Shown here: positions 1,063-8,275 of the stretch, piece by piece
How positions within the stretch are numbered: the stretch's first letter is position 1
Layout of the letters: each line of letters opens with the position of its first letter
Assembly (NCBI GenBank): GCA_016193385.1
Contig: JACPSF010000397.1
Coordinates: 1-9,595, forward strand
Reading direction: 5' to 3'
DNA: 9,595 nucleotides
Source of the DNA: Deltaproteobacteria bacterium
Lineage (GTDB): Bacteria; Desulfobacterota_B; Binatia; UBA9968
Made by a program: the position numbers and the translations under genes
The notes under the pieces: generated by a model
The model's input: the letters and a program-made list of their open reading frames with translations, nothing else
What the model was told of the DNA's origin: nothing
Databases searched by the model: none

Positions 1063-1776
1063 ATGAGCGCTCAGAACCGTATCGGTCTCATTATTCCTTC
1101 CAGCAACCGTCTCACTGAGCCACAATTTCAGCGATACGCTCCGCCCGACATCGGGGTCCATGTCATGCGACTGCGCATGACCGGCCGGTGGCATAAGCCG
1201 CTGAAGGAACTCAAAGAAGACATTGGTGAGGCGGCAGCCGTGCTCGCTGACACCAAGCCAGGAATTATCGTGTTCCACTGCACCGCGACTTCTATGGAAG
1301 AAGGGCTCGCCGGGGAGGCCGAAATCGTGGACGCGGTTCAAACCTCCAGTGGCTGCCAGGCCATCACCACCGGCGAAGCAATCAACCAGGCGTTGAACCG
1401 CCTCGGGATCAGAAAACTCATCCTTATCAGCCCTTACGCCAAGGAGACCAACCAACACGAGATCCGCTATTTGCGCGAGGCGGGCTTTGAAGTCCTGCAG
1501 GATTTTGGCTTGGGGCTTTCCGGCGGCGGGGATGAATACATCAACATCAGTCCCCAACGCTGGAGGGAGATCGTTCTGGAGAACGCCCGTTCGGAGGCGG
1601 ATGGCTATCTCCTAAGCTGCACCAACACGACCATGATCGAAGTCATCGACGATTTGGAGCGCCGTCTCGGAAAGCCCGTTGTTACCAGCAACCAGGCTAC
1701 GCTTTGGGCTTGCCTGGCAAAGCTCGGCGCGCTCCGCCCTATCCCTGGACTTGGCCGGCTATTCCATCCCAATTAA
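1063..1776 (+). CDS. Asp/Glu racemase-superfamily enzyme, maleate isomerase / arylmalonate decarboxylase type
   Basis: Cytosolic cofactor-independent enzyme of the Asp/Glu racemase superfamily, 237 residues, the usual length. The maleate isomerase/arylmalonate decarboxylase branch is indicated by RIGLIIPSSNRLTEP near the N-terminus, the segment LGIRKLILISPYAKETNQ, and LLSCTNTTMIEVIDDLERRL followed by KPVVTSNQATLWA. Cys73 (in VFHCTATS) and Cys186 (in LLSCTNT) fall at the two active-site positions of maleate isomerase; arylmalonate decarboxylase keeps only the second Cys, so an isomerase or racemase chemistry is the better guess. ATG 1063 is preferred to the in-frame GTG at 1051 because homologues begin shortly before RIGLI; neither has a strong ribosome binding site. 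It lies upstream of the HyuA/HyuB genes on the same strand but 302 bases away, so it may be a separate unit. Hydantoin racemase is an alternative within the superfamily, less well supported by the motifs. Confidence 0.82.
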   Translation: MSAQNRIGLIIPSSNRLTEPQFQRYAPPDIGVHVMRLRMTGRWHKPLKELKEDIGEAAAVLADTKPGIIVFHCTATSMEEGLAGEAEIVDAVQTSSGCQAITTGEAINQALNRLGIRKLILISPYAKETNQHEIRYLREAGFEVLQDFGLGLSGGGDEYINISPQRWREIVLENARSEADGYLLSCTNTTMIEVIDDLERRLGKPVVTSNQATLWACLAKLGALRPIPGLGRLFHPN

Positions 1777-2078
1777 ATTCTGTCCAGACTCCGCATACAG
1801 CCTTTGCCTTTACACTTTTAGAGTGGCTCCGGACCGTGGCGCTCCTGCCCATCGGCAGTCGCGAAGTTCTCATGTTCGGTATCGCGATCTCAGGTTGACT
1901 CCCTGTCCGCAAAGCCTTATAAGAGCCCGCAGAATGGCCGTTACGCGAACCCGCGTGAGACAGGAAGTTAGCGTGTGATGAGGTCGCGACTTTCGCATTC
2001 GCTGAAGAAGGGATCTCCTTGCTGAAAGAGCTTGAGGCCTCAGGTTTTGTCGACGCCCTTTACAGGAAGTGACGGGGA
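1777..2078 (+). other. Intergenic leader upstream of hyuA; possible 3' remnant of a lost gene
   Basis: No intact gene is seen in these 302 bases. The first 120 bases show no terminator. A promoter lies at 1895-1923. Two very short frames follow it (ATG 1934 to TGA 1978, 14 codons; ATG 1978 to 2025, 15 codons, overlapping as TGATG), with weak or no ribosome binding sites. From 1959 to the stop at 2070-2072 an open stretch without a start reads like real protein, ending GISLLKELEASGFVDALYRK, in which the final AGGAAG (2064-2069) also serves as ribosome binding site for hyuA. It may be the tail of a deleted upstream gene; I cannot assign its family. Confidence 0.35.
1895..1923 (+). promoter_or_regulatory. 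Sigma70-like promoter of the hyuA-hyuB unit
   Basis: TTGACT (1895-1900), a 17-base spacer and TATAAG (1918-1923): five of six matches in both hexamers at optimal spacing. Transcription would begin near 1930, leaving an untranslated leader of about 150 bases before hyuA, long enough for leader regulation. Confidence 0.5.
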
Positions 2079-4184
2079 ATGACGCGCTACCGCGTGGGAG
2101 TGGATGTTGGGGGCACGTTCACCGATGTCGTCTTCATGGACGACGCCGGTGAGGTAACCATCAAAAAAGTCCTCTCCACTCCGAAGGATTACAGCGAAGG
2201 AATCCTGGACGCTATCGGCCCGTCCCTTAAAGAGAAAGGTCTGGAAGGACGCGAGATCGAGGCGGTCATCCACGGCACGACCATAGCCACAAACGCGATC
2301 CTGACACGGTCAGGAGCAAAAGCTGGTCTCATCACAACGCGGGGTTTCCGTGACGTCCTGGAGTTCGGGAGAATTCGGAGACCGCAGCTCTACGACATGG
2401 AATGGGAAAGGCCCACCCCTCTGGTTCCCAGGTATCTTCGAATGGAAGTCGACGAACGAATCGCCTCTGACGGAGAGGTGCTCGTCCCCCTCGACATGGC
2501 TGGCGTGGCGCGGGCGGTTCGCTCCTTACTGGAGGAAAAGGTTGAGTCTGTAGCGGTATGTCTTATCAATTCGTATCGGAACCCGAAACACGAAGCGGAG
2601 ATCGGTCGCTATCTCGCGAGCGAAGCTCCGGGCATCTTTGTCAATCTGTCGAGTGTCCTCCTCCCCGAAATCAAGGAGTTTGAACGCGCCAGCACCACGG
2701 TTGTGAATGCTTATGTCCAACCGGTTGTGAAGGGCTACGTGGAGAGCTTCGCTCAGAAGCTCGGAAGCATCGGAATCGTCTGTCCGCTTCTTGTCATGCA
2801 GTCGAACGGAGGCGTGACTCCTGCTCGCAGAGCCATCGATCAGCCAATCCACATCATCGAATCCGGTCCTGCCGCAGGGGTCATCGGCACGCTTTTCATG
2901 GCGCGGCGGACCGGAATGGAGAATCTTATCAGCTTTGACATGGGTGGCACGACAGCCAAGGCCTGCATCGTCGAAAAGGGCGAAGTGACTAAAACCAACG
3001 AGTACGAGGTTGGAGCCGGCCTCAACATAGGCCATCGGATGCTGAAGGGCGGAGGCCACGTGGTGCGGGTCCCTATCCTGGACATTGCCGAAGTCGGGGC
3101 CGGAGGGGGAAGCATCGCCTGGATTGCCGTGGGAGGGATTCTAAAAGTGGGCCCTCAGAGCGCCGGAGCCAGCCCCGGACCCGTGGGCTACGACCTCGGG
3201 GGAAGCGACCCGACGGTGACAGACGCCAATGTGGCTCTGGGCTACCTGAACCCCGAATACCTGGCTGGAGGGGCCCTACGGCTCAACGCGGACGCCGCAC
3301 GCCGCTCCCTCCATGACCGGATTGCCCGGCCTTTGGGGCTTGAGCTGGTGCAAGCCGCGTACGGCATTCATGTTATCTCCAATGCGACCATGGTCAGAGC
3401 GGTCCGCGCGGTCTCCATCGAACGCGGGCGCGACCCGAGGAAGTTCGCACTCTGGGCTTTCGGAGGGAGCGGTCCGGTCCACGCGGCGCATCTTGCCCAG
3501 GAGATGGAGATGGTCCGAGTCGTCGTCCCTCCTGCACCAGGATTGTTTAGCTCCCTCGGGCTCCTCTTTTCGGACCTGGAACACCATTACACGCAGACTT
3601 TCTGGAACAAGTTCGCCGATGCCAGGCTCGAAGACGTTAACGAGGCCTGGACCCGGCTCGTGAGAAAGGCGTGCGACGATCTGGCGTGGGAAGGCTACGC
3701 TAACGAGAGAGCCCAGATGCAGGCGATAGCTGACGTCCGATATGTGGGTCAAAACTCGGATCTAGCCATTCCTCTGCCCAACGGTTCCCTGAGGCTCGAA
3801 AGCCTGGCTATTCTACGCGAGGCCTTTGAGCAAGAACACGAGCACACGTATGGGTATCGCGTCCCTGAGAGTTCGGTCCAGTTCGTCAACTTGAGGGTGA
3901 TTGCTCGAGGGCTCAGAGAAAGGCCGCAAACATTCCAGGGCCTGACTCGCTCGTTGAATCCTTCCCCCGCAGCCTGCCTTCCGAGTCGCCAACGACGCGC
4001 TTACTTTGGCCCGGCTTTCGGCTGGATCGAGACTTCCGTCGTGAGCCGGGATCACCTCGATCATAGCTCTCAGGAAGGACCGCTCATCGTCGAGGAATAC
4101 GACTCGACCACAGTGGTTCCGCCGCGCTGTCGTGCCCGGAGGGACGAATGGGGGAACATCAATGTGGAAGTCCGCAGGTCTTAG
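2079..4184 (+). CDS. hyuA: Hydantoinase/oxoprolinase/acetone carboxylase-type ATP-binding subunit (HyuA)
   Basis: ATP-dependent subunit of the hydantoinase A / 5-oxoprolinase / acetone carboxylase beta family, an ASKHA-fold kinase-like protein that phosphorylates the substrate (or bicarbonate) so the partner subunit can open a ring or carboxylate. At 701 residues it is full length. The N-terminal domain begins with [10 protein letters not shown] (7-16), a phosphate-binding loop, and has [10 protein letters not shown] (65-74). The central domain contains MQSNGG (240-245), ESGPAAG (261-267), DMGGT (287-291), AGGGS (341-345), QSAGASPGP (360-368) and FGGSGP (461-466). [11 protein letters not shown] starts the C-terminal domain. 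All expected motifs are intact. ATG 2079 is preceded by AGGAAG at nine bases. The stop lies four bases before the best start of the next gene, so the two are translated together. Substrate cannot be told: hydantoins, oxoproline, N-methylhydantoin and ketones are all handled by this family. Confidence 0.93.
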
Positions 4185-4188
4185 AGAC

Positions 4189-5937
4189 ATGGCCAAAGAA
4201 TCTCGCCGCGACCCTATCACGTTCGAGCTCATGCAGCATGCCATCGCTGCGATCGCCGACCAGATGGCCGTCACTGTAGTGAGAACCGCCAGGTCGACCG
4301 TGGCCAAGGAGGTGATGGATTTCTCCACGGCTTTGTGCAACGCCGACGGCGAGCTTGTGGCTCTTGGACTGTGCTTGCCGCTGATGCTGGGGAGCATCCC
4401 TCCCGCCGTCCAGGCCGTTCTGAAGCGCTTTCGCAATGATTGTCATCCCGGAGACGTCTATGTCCTGAACGATCCCTACGACGGCGGGGCCCACCTCCCG
4501 GATATCTACATGTTCAAGCCTGTCTTTATCGGCGACAACGTCCTTGGCTTCTCCTGCACGGTCATGCACCACGCCGACATCGGGGGCATTGCCGCGGGAG
4601 GCATTTCCTCGGCCGCTACCGAGATCTACCAGGAAGGACTCTGCATCCCTCCGCTAAAACTTTTCGATCGAGGGAAACCCAATGAAACCCTTCTATCGAT
4701 CATCCGACGAAACGTCCGCGTTCCCGAGACGGTCATGGCAGACATCTCGTCGCAAGTGGCCGCCTGCGCCGAGGGTGAAGAAGGGTTGATCGCGCTGGTC
4801 CAGGAGTATGGGTTAGAGACCACCCAATGGTATCTGCGAGACCTGCTGGACTACAGCGAGGAACGCACTCGGGATGCGATTCGAAAGCTCCCCGACGGCG
4901 AGTTCTCTTTCTGCGATCACCTGGACGACGACGGCTTGACTACGGACCCCATTCCCATCCGGGTAAGCTTGAAGAAGCTGGGTGACGAACTCACCGCCGA
5001 TTTCACCGGGACGGCTCCCCAGGTGAAGGGCGCGATGAACATGACCCGGTCTTACGCCCTGTCGAGCTTTTATTTCGCCGTCCGCTGCATCCTCGACCCC
5101 GACATCCCGAACAACGAGGGTTTTTTTCGTCCTCTGAAAGTGGTGACCGTCCCGGGTACGCTCGTGGATGCTTTGCCCCCGGCTCCTGTCGCCTCCAGGG
5201 TGCTCACGGCGATTCGGGCTTCAGACACCCTTCTCGGAGCCCTTGCCCAGATGTTGCCGGAAAGAATCCTGGCCTGCGGTGTCGCCACGGACTGCAACAT
5301 CAGCGTGTCGGGCTATTATCCCGATCGGGGACCCTTTGTCCAGCTGGACTGGCTTCCCGGATCATGGGGCGGCCGTCCTGATAAGGATGGCATCGACCAC
5401 CTGGCGGGTCTGTGCTCCAACTTTTCCAACACCCCTGTGGAAGTGATCGAGATCGAATCCCCCCTTCTGGTGGAAGAGTACTCGCTCGTGCCCGACAGCG
5501 CTGGGGTCGGCAAGTTTCGGGGCGGCCTGTCGGTGACCCGCAAGTGGCGACTACGCGGGGCTGAGGAGGCCAAGGTGCACATGCGGGCGGATCGGCTGAA
5601 GTTCCTCCCCTATAGCTTGCAGGGGGGCAAGCCAGGTCGTCCGGGGCAAACCCTCCTCTCCGCGAACGGCGCGATCCGGCAGATGCCCTCTAAATTCCAG
5701 ATCACGATCAAGCGAGGAGACTGGATCCAGCACCAGACTGCAGGGGCGGGTGGGTGGGGGGATGTGCTGGGGCGAGATCCGGAGAGGGTCCTCAAGGACG
5801 TTCGCGACGGCAAGATCTCCGCGGAGCACGCAACGGGCGAGTACGGCGTCGCCCTATCCCCGGATGGACGAAGCATCGACCGGGAGAGGACCGAAGCCTT
5901 GCGCGCCGCCCTACGCAAACGCGACTCCGGAGCCTAG
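4189..5937 (+). CDS. hyuB: Hydantoinase B/oxoprolinase family subunit, first copy (HyuB1)
   Basis: Partner of HyuA in the ATP-dependent cyclic amidase/carboxylase complex, 582 residues from ATG 4189, close to the usual 520-600. Typical signatures in order: RRDPITFELMQHAIAAIADQ at the start, HPGDVYVLNDPYDGGAH (86-102), HHADIGG (127-133), EIYQEGLCIPP (145-155), the KFRGGLSVTR segment, and near residue 519 GAGGWGDVLGRDPERVLKDV followed by the helical tail. ATG 4189 is chosen because homologues begin just before RDPITFE; it lies four bases after the hyuA stop. An in-frame ATG at 4162 inside the end of hyuA, behind GGGGGA, would add nine residues and is a real alternative. No frameshift or missing motif is seen. 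It forms the A-B pair with the upstream gene and alone would suffice for a hydantoinase-type enzyme. Confidence 0.92.
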   Translation: MAKESRRDPITFELMQHAIAAIADQMAVTVVRTARSTVAKEVMDFSTALCNADGELVALGLCLPLMLGSIPPAVQAVLKRFRNDCHPGDVYVLNDPYDGGAHLPDIYMFKPVFIGDNVLGFSCTVMHHADIGGIAAGGISSAATEIYQEGLCIPPLKLFDRGKPNETLLSIIRRNVRVPETVMADISSQVAACAEGEEGLIALVQEYGLETTQWYLRDLLDYSEERTRDAIRKLPDGEFSFCDHLDDDGLTTDPIPIRVSLKKLGDELTADFTGTAPQVKGAMNMTRSYALSSFYFAVRCILDPDIPNNEGFFRPLKVVTVPGTLVDALPPAPVASRVLTAIRASDTLLGALAQMLPERILACGVATDCNISVSGYYPDRGPFVQLDWLPGSWGGRPDKDGIDHLAGLCSNFSNTPVEVIEIESPLLVEEYSLVPDSAGVGKFRGGLSVTRKWRLRGAEEAKVHMRADRLKFLPYSLQGGKPGRPGQTLLSANGAIRQMPSKFQITIKRGDWIQHQTAGAGGWGDVLGRDPERVLKDVRDGKISAEHATGEYGVALSPDGRSIDRERTEALRAALRKRDSGA

Positions 5938-6017
5938 GCTGTGCCTTTTTCTAGCCCACTTCGCCCCCACCCTTTATCACCGATTTGACGGCTGCCGCAC
6001 GGAGTGGCGCTGTGACG
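5938..6017 (+). other. Short gap between hyuB1 and the second-module promoter
   Basis: No gene, and no hairpin followed by a T run, is seen in these 80 bases, so transcription from hyuA may read through into the second module. Confidence 0.5.
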
Positions 6018-6047
6018 TTGACATACTGTCGCCGCCTGTAACATAAT
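6018..6047 (+). promoter_or_regulatory. Sigma70-like promoter before the second HyuB gene
   Basis: A perfect TTGACA (6018-6023), an 18-base spacer and CATAAT (6042-6047, five of six). It lies in a locally AT-richer stretch between hyuB1 and hyuB2. Transcription would begin near 6054 with a leader of about 33 bases. The best promoter match in the window. Confidence 0.6.
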
Positions 6048-6065
6048 TCAACTTTCGTAAAATAC

Positions 6066-6081
6066 AGGAGGGATGTCAGGA
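6066..6081 (+). promoter_or_regulatory. Ribosome binding region of the second HyuB gene
   Basis: AGGAGGG (6066-6072) lies 14 bases before the ATG at 6087 and a second AGGA (6078-6081) lies five bases before it. The stronger element is closer to an ATG at 6073, which only opens a 10-codon frame, so a tiny upstream frame overlaps the true start. Confidence 0.5.
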
Positions 6082-6086
6082 CTGCC

Positions 6087-8096
6087 ATGCAAATCGACCC
6101 AGTAAAGTACGAGATGTTTCTGCACCGCCTTTGGGCCATAGGCGAGGAAGGACGCATAACGCTTCAGCGGGTGACCGCATCGCCGATTGTTTCCCAGGGC
6201 GGCGAGTGCATGAGCTCCTTTTACGATTCCGGCGGAACCATGGTGCTCGCCTGCTCGGGGCACCTGCGTTTTGCCCATGCCACCTCGGACGCCATCAAGA
6301 CCCTCATCAAGTGGTTTGGCGAGTCCCCAGGCTTTTACGACGGAGACCAGCTCTTCTTGAACGATCCCTACGTGGCGGGCTCTCACACCTACGACATGAT
6401 GATCGTGAAGCCGATCTATTACGGCGGGGAGCTGGTTGCCTGGGTGGCCACAAGTACCCACACGGCCGACACGGGAGGAATCCTTCGAGGAGCGGCTACG
6501 GAAATATTTCATGAAGGGATCCGCATCTCCGGTCTTAAAGTAGTCGAACGAGGGGAGTTTCGCGAAGACGTTTTCCGGAGTCTTACCGAACAGTGTCGGG
6601 ACCCGCAATACGTGGGCCTCGATCTCAAAGCGATGATCGCCGGAAACAACGTCTGCGCCCGCCGCTATCTGGAACTGGTGGAGAAGTTCGGCATTGAGTT
6701 TGTGCAGGAGGCTGGGGAGAAAACTATTCGGGACACGGAGGATATGGCCAGGGCAAAGCTTCGCTCCCTTCCGGACGGGCGCTGGGTATCGAGGACCTAC
6801 CTCACCTCCCTGGACAGGAAACAAGCCAAGGCTGTCCCTCTGCAAATAGTTTGCACGATGACCAAGTGCGGGGACAAGCTGGAAGTGGATTTTTCCGGCA
6901 CCAGTCCTCAAATGGCCAACGATGTGAACTCAACTCTCCCCAGCACCAGGGCGCATCTGGGTGTCGCCCTCACCAACACCCTCTTCTGGGATGTTCCATG
7001 GAGCGACGGTAAATTCGTTCCCGTGAAGCTCTCGGTCCCGGAGGGCTCAGTGCTCAACTGCAAGTTTCCAGCCGCTTGCGCCGCGGCACCCGTGGTTGGA
7101 GGAATTTTGGTCGCTGCGGTCTGCGAAGCCGCGGCGAAGATGCTTTATGCCGCGGGTCGCTACGAAGACGTAACCGCAACCTGGTACGGCATGTGGTATG
7201 AGGGCGGGCCGGGCTACATTCCCGCGGGGCACAACCGCGAGGGGATCCGTACCGCTATGGGAATCTACGATATTCACGGGAGCGGCCTGGGAGCTACCCC
7301 TTACAGAGATGGGGTCAACACCGGCGGCCACATGAACATTCCTTCAGGTGGAATCAGTGACGTCGAGCGAGTCGAGATGCAATACCCCATGTTCTACTTT
7401 ACCCGTAATCAGAACAAGGACGGCTCGGGCTTCGGCAAATACCGCGGCGGGCTGGGAAGCTTCAGAATCCTCGCCGTTTACGGGTCCACGGACTTCTCAG
7501 TAGACTTCAAACCCTACGGAGCTATTCCACAGGGAAGCTTTGGCCTTTTCGGCGGCCACCCGGTGGGAAGCGGCGGTCTGCGGGCGATCTTCCTCACCGG
7601 GCCGGATTTTATGGATCGGATAAGAGCCGGGAATTACCCCACGCGTCCCGATGAAGTGTCCGGTGAGGATTGGGGAAAAGTCTACGTTCCCGAGGGCGCG
7701 CCGGGAAGAGTCTCGCTTCCTGAGTTCACCTTGATCTGCGACTATGTGGCGAGCGGCGGTGGCTTTGGCGATCCCTTGGACCGAAAACTCGATGCGGTCA
7801 CACACGACGTAAAAACCGGGGCCACCTCTCCTGAAATGGCCCGACGGGTTTACGGTGTCGTCATCGACCCTGACAGTTTCTCCGTGGATATTCTTCGGAC
7901 CGAAGCGCTGCGCCGGGAGATCCACGACACGCGCCTCAGAACGGGCAAACTCGCGCGCCCGTCGGCGCGGCCGAAGGATGAGGGACGGGCGAATACCTGG
8001 AGATCGCACAAAACGGCAGCGAGCGTTTTATTCGCTGTATCCGGTGCGGGTATCTGTTTTGCCATCCGGAGGAGAACTACAAGAAATACAGTTTAA
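6087..8096 (+). CDS. Hydantoinase B/acetone carboxylase alpha-type subunit, second copy (HyuB2), with aberrant C-terminal extension
   Basis: Second, clearly diverged HyuB-family subunit, closer by its N-terminal pattern (KYEMFLHRLWAIGEEGRITL) to the ketone carboxylase branch than HyuB1. Key segments: FYDGDQLFLNDPYVAGSH (83-100), THTADTGG (124-131), ATEIFHEGIRISG (137-149), the WYGMWYEGGPG and NTGGHMNIPSGG segments, KYRGGLGSF, and GGGFGDPLDRK near residue 557 followed by the conserved helical tail. The open frame has 669 codons, but family similarity appears to end near residue 625-630. From about base 7980 the frame reads through the start of the gamma-like gene out of frame, yielding a basic tail ending RRRTTRNTV that I consider artefactual. 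Either the native stop was lost by frameshift or the gene was fused to the gamma coding region. ATG 6087 is supported by AGGA at five bases and by the family N-terminus. It has its own promoter. Confidence 0.88.
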   Translation: MQIDPVKYEMFLHRLWAIGEEGRITLQRVTASPIVSQGGECMSSFYDSGGTMVLACSGHLRFAHATSDAIKTLIKWFGESPGFYDGDQLFLNDPYVAGSHTYDMMIVKPIYYGGELVAWVATSTHTADTGGILRGAATEIFHEGIRISGLKVVERGEFREDVFRSLTEQCRDPQYVGLDLKAMIAGNNVCARRYLELVEKFGIEFVQEAGEKTIRDTEDMARAKLRSLPDGRWVSRTYLTSLDRKQAKAVPLQIVCTMTKCGDKLEVDFSGTSPQMANDVNSTLPSTRAHLGVALTNTLFWDVPWSDGKFVPVKLSVPEGSVLNCKFPAACAAAPVVGGILVAAVCEAAAKMLYAAGRYEDVTATWYGMWYEGGPGYIPAGHNREGIRTAMGIYDIHGSGLGATPYRDGVNTGGHMNIPSGGISDVERVEMQYPMFYFTRNQNKDGSGFGKYRGGLGSFRILAVYGSTDFSVDFKPYGAIPQGSFGLFGGHPVGSGGLRAIFLTGPDFMDRIRAGNYPTRPDEVSGEDWGKVYVPEGAPGRVSLPEFTLICDYVASGGGFGDPLDRKLDAVTHDVKTGATSPEMARRVYGVVIDPDSFSVDILRTEALRREIHDTRLRTGKLARPSARPKDEGRANTWRSHKTAASVLFAVSGAGICFAIRRRTTRNTV

Positions 8097-8275
8097 GGCG
8101 GATCGTCGATCTGGACCAGGCAGCCGTTCGACCCCTGCCTTCTCAAGAACCCTACCTGGGCCGATACCATGAGTATATCTGCCCGGGTTGCGGGACCCTG
8201 TTACAACTCGACGTGTTCTGCCCCGTTCTAGGAGGTGAAGAGGATCTTTGGGACCTGCGGATCGATCTCATCTGA
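7978..8275 (+). CDS. Acetone carboxylase gamma-subunit-like zinc-ribbon protein, 5' end disrupted
   Basis: Small zinc-binding subunit of the acetone/acetophenone carboxylase gamma family. The frame starting at 7982 (GGG) and ending with TGA 8273-8275 encodes GTGEYLEIAQNGSERFIRC and so on, 97 residues. Two CxxC knuckles are visible: CIRCG (Cys19, Cys22) and CPGCGTLL (Cys67, Cys70), with HPEENYK between them and the family-typical WDLRIDL at the C-terminus. These features match gamma subunits, which scaffold the large A and B subunits. However, the frame has a TGA at 7979-7981 and no ATG, GTG or TTG before the conserved region. The ATG at 7978 is in another frame and would give MRDG-EYLEI only if one base near 7990 were skipped. 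Alternatively, adding one base there joins it to HyuB2 as a fusion. The coding part is otherwise intact, so a recent frameshift, an assembly error or a non-standard start are all possible. Confidence 0.75.
8010..8037 (+). repeat. Nested inverted repeats within the start of the gamma-like frame
   Basis: AAAACG (8010-8015) pairs with CGTTTT (8024-8029), and CAGCGA (8017-8022) pairs with TCGCTG (8032-8037) around a nine-base loop. The two stems overlap and are mutually exclusive. They sit 20-50 bases after the frame break, so RNA structure there could matter, but chance is possible. Confidence 0.35.

Follow-up and report, generated by a model that had tools for sequence, protein, structure and literature searches.

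Is a gene for a small zinc-binding subunit that has no start codon, and that does not share a reading frame with the gene in front of it, an orphan, one half of a recoded pair, or a piece of a broken gene? The stretch of DNA analysed here (the window: all 9,595 nucleotides (nt) of contig JACPSF010000397.1, Deltaproteobacteria bacterium assembly GCA_016193385.1, Binatia) raises this question on its forward strand close to position 7,990, where HyuB2, a gene of the hydantoinase B (HyuB) type, meets a frame encoding a gamma-type carboxylase subunit. Comparison with related proteins and genomes makes it very probable that the native gene is a HyuB-gamma fusion, and that this contig has lost approximately 25 nt at positions 7986-7990, which leaves gamma out of frame. 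An insertion/deletion (indel) or assembly error had been the default explanation of the first-pass annotation, a default that stands.

The closest protein found in the database, P0017 (737 residues), is a single chain carrying both HyuB and gamma domains, as is the second-nearest, P0018, which has the same length. When P0017 was compared to the window by tblastn, residues 1-633 aligned without gaps to positions 6087-7985 in frame +3 (608/633 identical), and residues 644-737 to positions 7991-8272 in frame +2 (92/94 identical); P0018 was split by tblastn into the same two collinear pieces. The ten intervening codons of P0017 (residues 634-643, 30 nt) are represented on the forward strand of the window by the five nucleotides at 7986-7990, a net loss of 25 nt, or eight codons and one base, with a change of frame. 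Since P0017 is one chain, and 30 nt are reduced to 5 nt, the native gene is therefore a fusion of which the window holds a copy about 25 nt short. The relatives themselves carry the fusion, and how much was lost is deduced from their proteins.

Each half of the gene is recognizable in its own right. HyuB2 begins at ATG 6087, in frame +3, and runs to the TAA at 8094-8096; this open reading frame (ORF) matches PF02538 (Hydantoinase_B) over the entire profile (positions 1-519 of 519, E = 3.9e-103), as expected of a HyuB-like protein. The Pfam match and the P0017 alignment assign codons 1-633 (6087-7985, forward strand) to the HyuB-like part of the fusion gene. There is no stop at 7985, where homology ends, and the frame continues into an out-of-frame tail of 36 codons (7986-8096, forward strand); the first-pass annotation had recognized this extension, although its length, given as 120 bases, measures 111 nt with the TAA included. 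GC content by codon position in the tail differs from that of the upstream frame. No relatives of the tail (residues 620-669) were found at E ≤ 1 among 11 candidates, a weak test because the database consists of 90% cluster representatives.

The gamma frame (+2) is preceded by the TGA at 7979-7981, is open from 7982 to 8272 and is closed by the TGA at 8273-8275. It matches PF08882 (Acetone_carb_G) with an E-value of 2.6e-8 and 34.5 bits, for a cut-off of 21, and carries both CxxC pairs of the zinc ribbon, at 8036-8047 (C659 and C662 of P0017) and 8180-8191 (C707 and C710), all on the forward strand; each of the four cysteine columns is at least 90% conserved among 53 aligned proteins. The frame is thus genuine, as had been claimed from the bare sequence. 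The gamma part proper, delimited by PF08882 and the P0017 alignment, covers 7991-8275 on the forward strand and has no usual start of its own: a scan of frame +2 found no ATG, GTG or TTG near the gamma N-terminus, in agreement with the earlier observation, and the first such codon, GTG 8213, comes too late in the frame, deep in the domain, to make gamma. The nearer candidates are CTG 7997 and ATC/ATT codons only. ATG 7978, from which the first-pass annotation had considered that a separate gamma could start once a base was taken out, indeed lies outside the gamma frame, in frame +1, and the relatives are built otherwise.

Could a single missing base, as had been proposed, explain the junction? 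The distance between the conserved Tyr of a YGVV motif and the Glu of EYLEI (Y589 to E644 in P0017) is 165 nt in P0017 and 140 nt in the window, which is not a multiple of three. Measured from the same Tyr to the His within IKIHEYLE (near-invariant; H643 of P0017), the spacing is 49-60 residues in the 44 of 53 aligned proteins that have both marker residues; the other nine, among which P0099 has no gamma part, lack one marker and show distances of 47-65. With one base added, the window spacing would be 46 residues, below all 53 aligned proteins (47-65), and the His would remain missing. Repairing a single-base error therefore yields no normal junction, and a one-base indel was ruled out as a sufficient cause by the 25-nt shortfall relative to P0017 together with the missing His. 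Of the proposal of a fused gene carrying an indel at this site, the fusion holds, since close relatives have both parts in frame, and the single missing base does not, P0017 and P0018 both pointing to 25 nt. A predicted model of P0017 (mean predicted local distance difference test score 87.8, predicted template modelling score 0.91) places a strand at residues 637-641, at the start of gamma and within the lost stretch. The loss would thus remove some eight linker codons, with them the greater part of gamma's first predicted strand, and shift the frame; the contig as written would produce HyuB2 with 36 foreign C-terminal residues, and a normal gamma would not be made.

The fusion is widely represented in relatives. 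Residues 450-669 of the HyuB2 frame, used as the query, matched 217 proteins; of the best 120 of these, 53 have both Pfam domains in precomputed annotation, and some of the others show gamma by eye. A search of genome contigs gave 12 loci, and in the seven with at least 52% identity (L001-L007) the gamma frame is free of stops up into the HyuB part, the contigs of L001, L002 and L004 ending within the fused frame. In a second set of 23 loci, which partly consists of enlarged versions of the 12 and counts some genes again, 25 of 25 HyuB-gamma pairs are in the same frame. The inspection of homologous HyuB2-gamma neighbours, proposed as a check by the first-pass annotation, was thus unanimous at all seven closer loci and for all 25 pairs.

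Gamma matches in the five genomes that hold fused loci amount to 29. Twenty-one show 42-71% identity, in frames of 223-800 residues without internal stops, and 17 of them reach at least 700 residues; the short ones are cut by contig ends (594, 577 and 223 residues) or by a frame change in G002:C480 (567 residues). The remainder comprise one extra piece of G001:C236 that lies in a different frame, together with seven distant matches (26-34%). Across 35 genomes from the order to which G003 belongs, PF08882 gave 75 matches in 30 genomes, in frames of at least 700 residues (50 matches), 550-699 residues (4) or less (21). An open frame of at least 700 residues is by itself no proof of a HyuB part, whose presence was checked in the 12-locus, 23-locus and L098-series sets. 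Seven of the 21 short frames are fused genes that are cut or damaged, namely L098-L103 (four of them translated) and G002:C452, at the place of L002. The fusion is also present in two metagenome-assembled genomes (MAGs) of Chloroflexota (L006 and L007), placed there because we take Limnocylindrales to belong to this phylum. No description of a HyuB-gamma fusion was found in the literature searched.

Several observations weigh against this reading or limit its reach. Five of the 12 loci (L008-L012, 32-33% identical) lack the join to HyuB, and stand-alone gammas exist within the same order, for instance in L105, beside a HyuB 35% identical to P0017. Fourteen of the 21 short PF08882 frames are separate or differently built; L105 and L104 are the two that were inspected, and L104 has no gamma match to P0017. 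The highest PF08882 score (124.9 bits) belongs to a 129-residue frame in G420:C294, which looks like an ordinary stand-alone gamma. P0017 found matches in 185 of 395 genomes from the same phylum as G003; among the matches listed, five extend past residue 650 (two in G003, two in G203 and one in G073), and most HyuB matches end before gamma. The HyuB-gamma fusion is common in Binatia-like MAGs and not universal. At the nucleotide level, the contig of G004 (Deltaproteobacteria bacterium RIFCSPLOWO2_02_FULL_57_26) is 96-98% identical to window positions 1294-7334, which points to a close relative of G004 as the source of the window. This contig stops at window position 7334, short of the junction, and the lost bases are hence deduced from proteins only. 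Strictly speaking, a shorter natural linker that lost 1 nt could also have given rise to the sequence seen here.

Within the explanation of a native fusion that lost about 25 nt, the loss could have arisen in the assembly or in the cell, and we slightly favour an artefact over a recent real mutation. That the 25-nt deletion is a real and recent event in this strain, either a loss-of-function allele or the onset of gene decay, is nonetheless a serious contender, at rather less than even odds. A loss of 25 nt is atypical of the indels caused by short-read base calling, which counts in its favour. In addition, another fused copy, G427:C133 (L102), has a gap of about 68 nt that spans this junction region too, between residues 622 and 661 of P0017, and because bases were also lost there the linker may be deletion-prone. 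The locus is irregular elsewhere as well: its RidA-like gene is incomplete and collinearity with G004 is broken at 995 and at 5960/5974, which suggests that it varies between strains. On the other hand, both halves of the gene are nearly identical to P0017 (608/633 and 92/94), and any loss must therefore be very recent, if it is real at all; no record sharing the foreign HyuB2 tail was found, with the same caveat of 90% cluster representatives. Furthermore, G427:C133 bears another loss inside HyuB and looks poorly assembled, and the irregularities of the window could share that cause. In the genes shared between G004 and the window, no frame-changing indel was seen, except for a compensating pair near 5833-5838. 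A literature search for assembly errors in Rifle data returned nothing. In G427:C133 itself, both losses lie within positions 895-1444 of L102, and the frame changes at each of them.

A separate gamma gene whose start was lost or is non-canonical, such as CTG 7997, is very improbable. Such an arrangement does have precedents: acxC is a separate gene downstream of acxB in characterised acetone carboxylases (PMC5214803), and the order itself has separate gammas, such as that of L105. Moreover, a database protein of 92 residues from a 9,595-base contig, P0001, is a gamma that begins at the place of CTG 7997. P0001 is probably the by-product of a broken frame, a start at CTG 7997 would omit the conserved IKIHEY stretch, and all close relatives examined lack a separate gamma.

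Programmed -1 frameshifting that joins HyuB2 and gamma, giving a short and a fused product, would fit the -1 relation of the two frames, their open overlap (7982-8096), the five places in this overlap with a run suited to the A-site half of a slippery site, and the existence of a second copy, G427:C133, whose frame shifts within the junction region. No heptamer of the form X XXY YYZ was found in any frame between 7978 and 8094, which bears out the earlier report that a canonical one is missing, and slippage cannot supply the approximately eight codons of conserved linker and strand; the absence of a heptamer and the loss of the predicted gamma strand both disfavour frameshifting, and relatives carry HyuB and gamma fused in one frame. 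The break in G427:C133 differs in size (about 68 nt) and in frame relation, lies beside a second loss in the gene, and therefore supports deletions rather than a conserved recoding signal. Other frame-broken copies are interrupted inside the HyuB part, P0072 and P0082 losing homology near residues 569 and 518, respectively, and G002:C480 (L066) changing frame near residue 180. Programmed frameshifting, which the first-pass annotation had itself called unusual, is extremely unlikely. Among further damaged copies, G424:C28 (L098) and G411:C148 (L099) are each interrupted by a stop within HyuB, and G001:C236 changes frame inside gamma, where it gives two matches in different frames. The ends of P0072 and P0082 resemble gamma read in the wrong frame after the shifts, which are probably sequence errors in those records.

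The intact fusion can be compared to two characterised carboxylases. The acetone carboxylase of Xanthobacter autotrophicus (AcxABC; PDB 5m45, 5svb and 5svc) binds Mn through Glu89, His150, Asp153 and His175 (PMC5543143) of its HyuB-like subunit. These residues of 5m45_A align with E40, H100, D103 and H125 of P0017, which are identical in the window, and the four putative Mn-ligand codons (6204, 6384, 6393 and 6459) span positions 6204-6461 of the forward strand. The acetone carboxylase gamma has four zinc cysteines, as here. By Foldseek, the P0017 model strongly matches both 5m45_A (E = 6.7e-45, approximately 24% identity over the aligned part) and 5l9w_A, of the Apc core complex of acetophenone carboxylase from Aromatoleum aromaticum (PDB 5l9w); by sequence, the HyuB part matches the latter enzyme best (E = 1.2e-58). 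For gamma, residues 650-721 of P0017 match chain 5m45_C by sequence (E = 0.0008), while the structural match to chain 5l9w_C is weak (E = 0.037, probability 1.00, 97 columns, Foldseek rank 13), and a VIA-align comparison of P0017 showed no gamma chain among the 50 rows listed.

There are also clear differences. Acetone carboxylase consists of three separate subunits, whereas here HyuB and gamma form one chain; instead of separate acxA, acxB and acxC genes in that order, relatives have HyuB-gamma as one gene, and the window carries HyuA, then a different HyuB (HyuB1), then the fusion. The HyuB part scores 228 bits against ApcD (NF042976), well under the equivalog cut-off of 1500, and a scan of six window proteins against NCBIfam gave no match that attained its cut-off. 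The HyuA-HyuB1 pair has caprolactamase subunits as its best NCBIfam matches, below cut-offs. Hydantoinases, 5-oxoprolinases and caprolactamases (HyuAB, CapAB; PDB 6yra and 9h03) have the HyuB fold in common with the fusion and lack a gamma subunit (PMC5214803). Eukaryotic oxoprolinases represent a different fusion, of HyuA and HyuB parts (PMC8453981).

The window holds other features of note. On the minus strand, positions 3-512 contain the start of a gene for an NMT1/THI5-like substrate-binding protein that runs off the left end, and positions 639-977 the RidA-like gene (PF01042), which matches profile positions 29-121 of 121 and has no N-terminal part; upstream of it, the frame has a stop and no usual start, close to the break in collinearity with G004 at 995. 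Between HyuB1 and HyuB2 the window has 13 bases (5960-5974) where G004 has 1,962 (1361-3324 of L077), the latter including a 332-residue ORF, similar on inspection by eye to a substrate-binding protein, and a 143-residue RidA-like ORF. The RidA truncation and the difference between 13 and 1,962 bases could reflect either variation between strains or faults of assembly.

The gamma of acetophenone carboxylase wraps partly around the HyuB-like subunit and is itself embraced by the C-terminal arm of that subunit (PMC5214803), and the gamma of acetone carboxylase contacts mainly the HyuB-like subunit, its role being described as not clear (PMC5543143). Since known gammas contact or are embraced by this subunit, fusion of gamma to the C-terminus of HyuB is structurally natural. 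By analogy, the mode of action of the intact fusion is most likely that of these two enzymes, its gamma being kept in place on the HyuB part that binds the metal, and its substrate and reaction would be carboxylase-like. Family membership would also require an ATP-binding partner of the HyuA type. In 12 of 25 HyuB-gamma cases checked, a HyuA-like gene is present upstream at a distance of up to about 1.1 kb; in the other 13, the partner, if any, would lie elsewhere or beyond the stretch examined. Six fusions (L078, L079, L081, L083, L084 and L085) have no HyuA match within about 5 kb or more on each side, and the scanned neighbours of four of them include luciferase-like genes (L078 and L084) and nitronate monooxygenases (L079 and L083). 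As many fusions are not beside a HyuA kinase partner, these proteins, which combine an Mn site and a zinc ribbon in one chain and have at least five paralogues in some genomes, would either rely on a common HyuA from another locus or have a different substrate, a proposal that falls only just short of an even chance.

The frame break is thus a true observation with an ordinary cause, and the fusion itself is the moderately interesting part. The break carries little weight beyond being an example of how a local deletion can mimic a start-less orphan gene. The underlying fusion is more useful, as a simple marker of carboxylase-like members of this family in uncultured bacteria.
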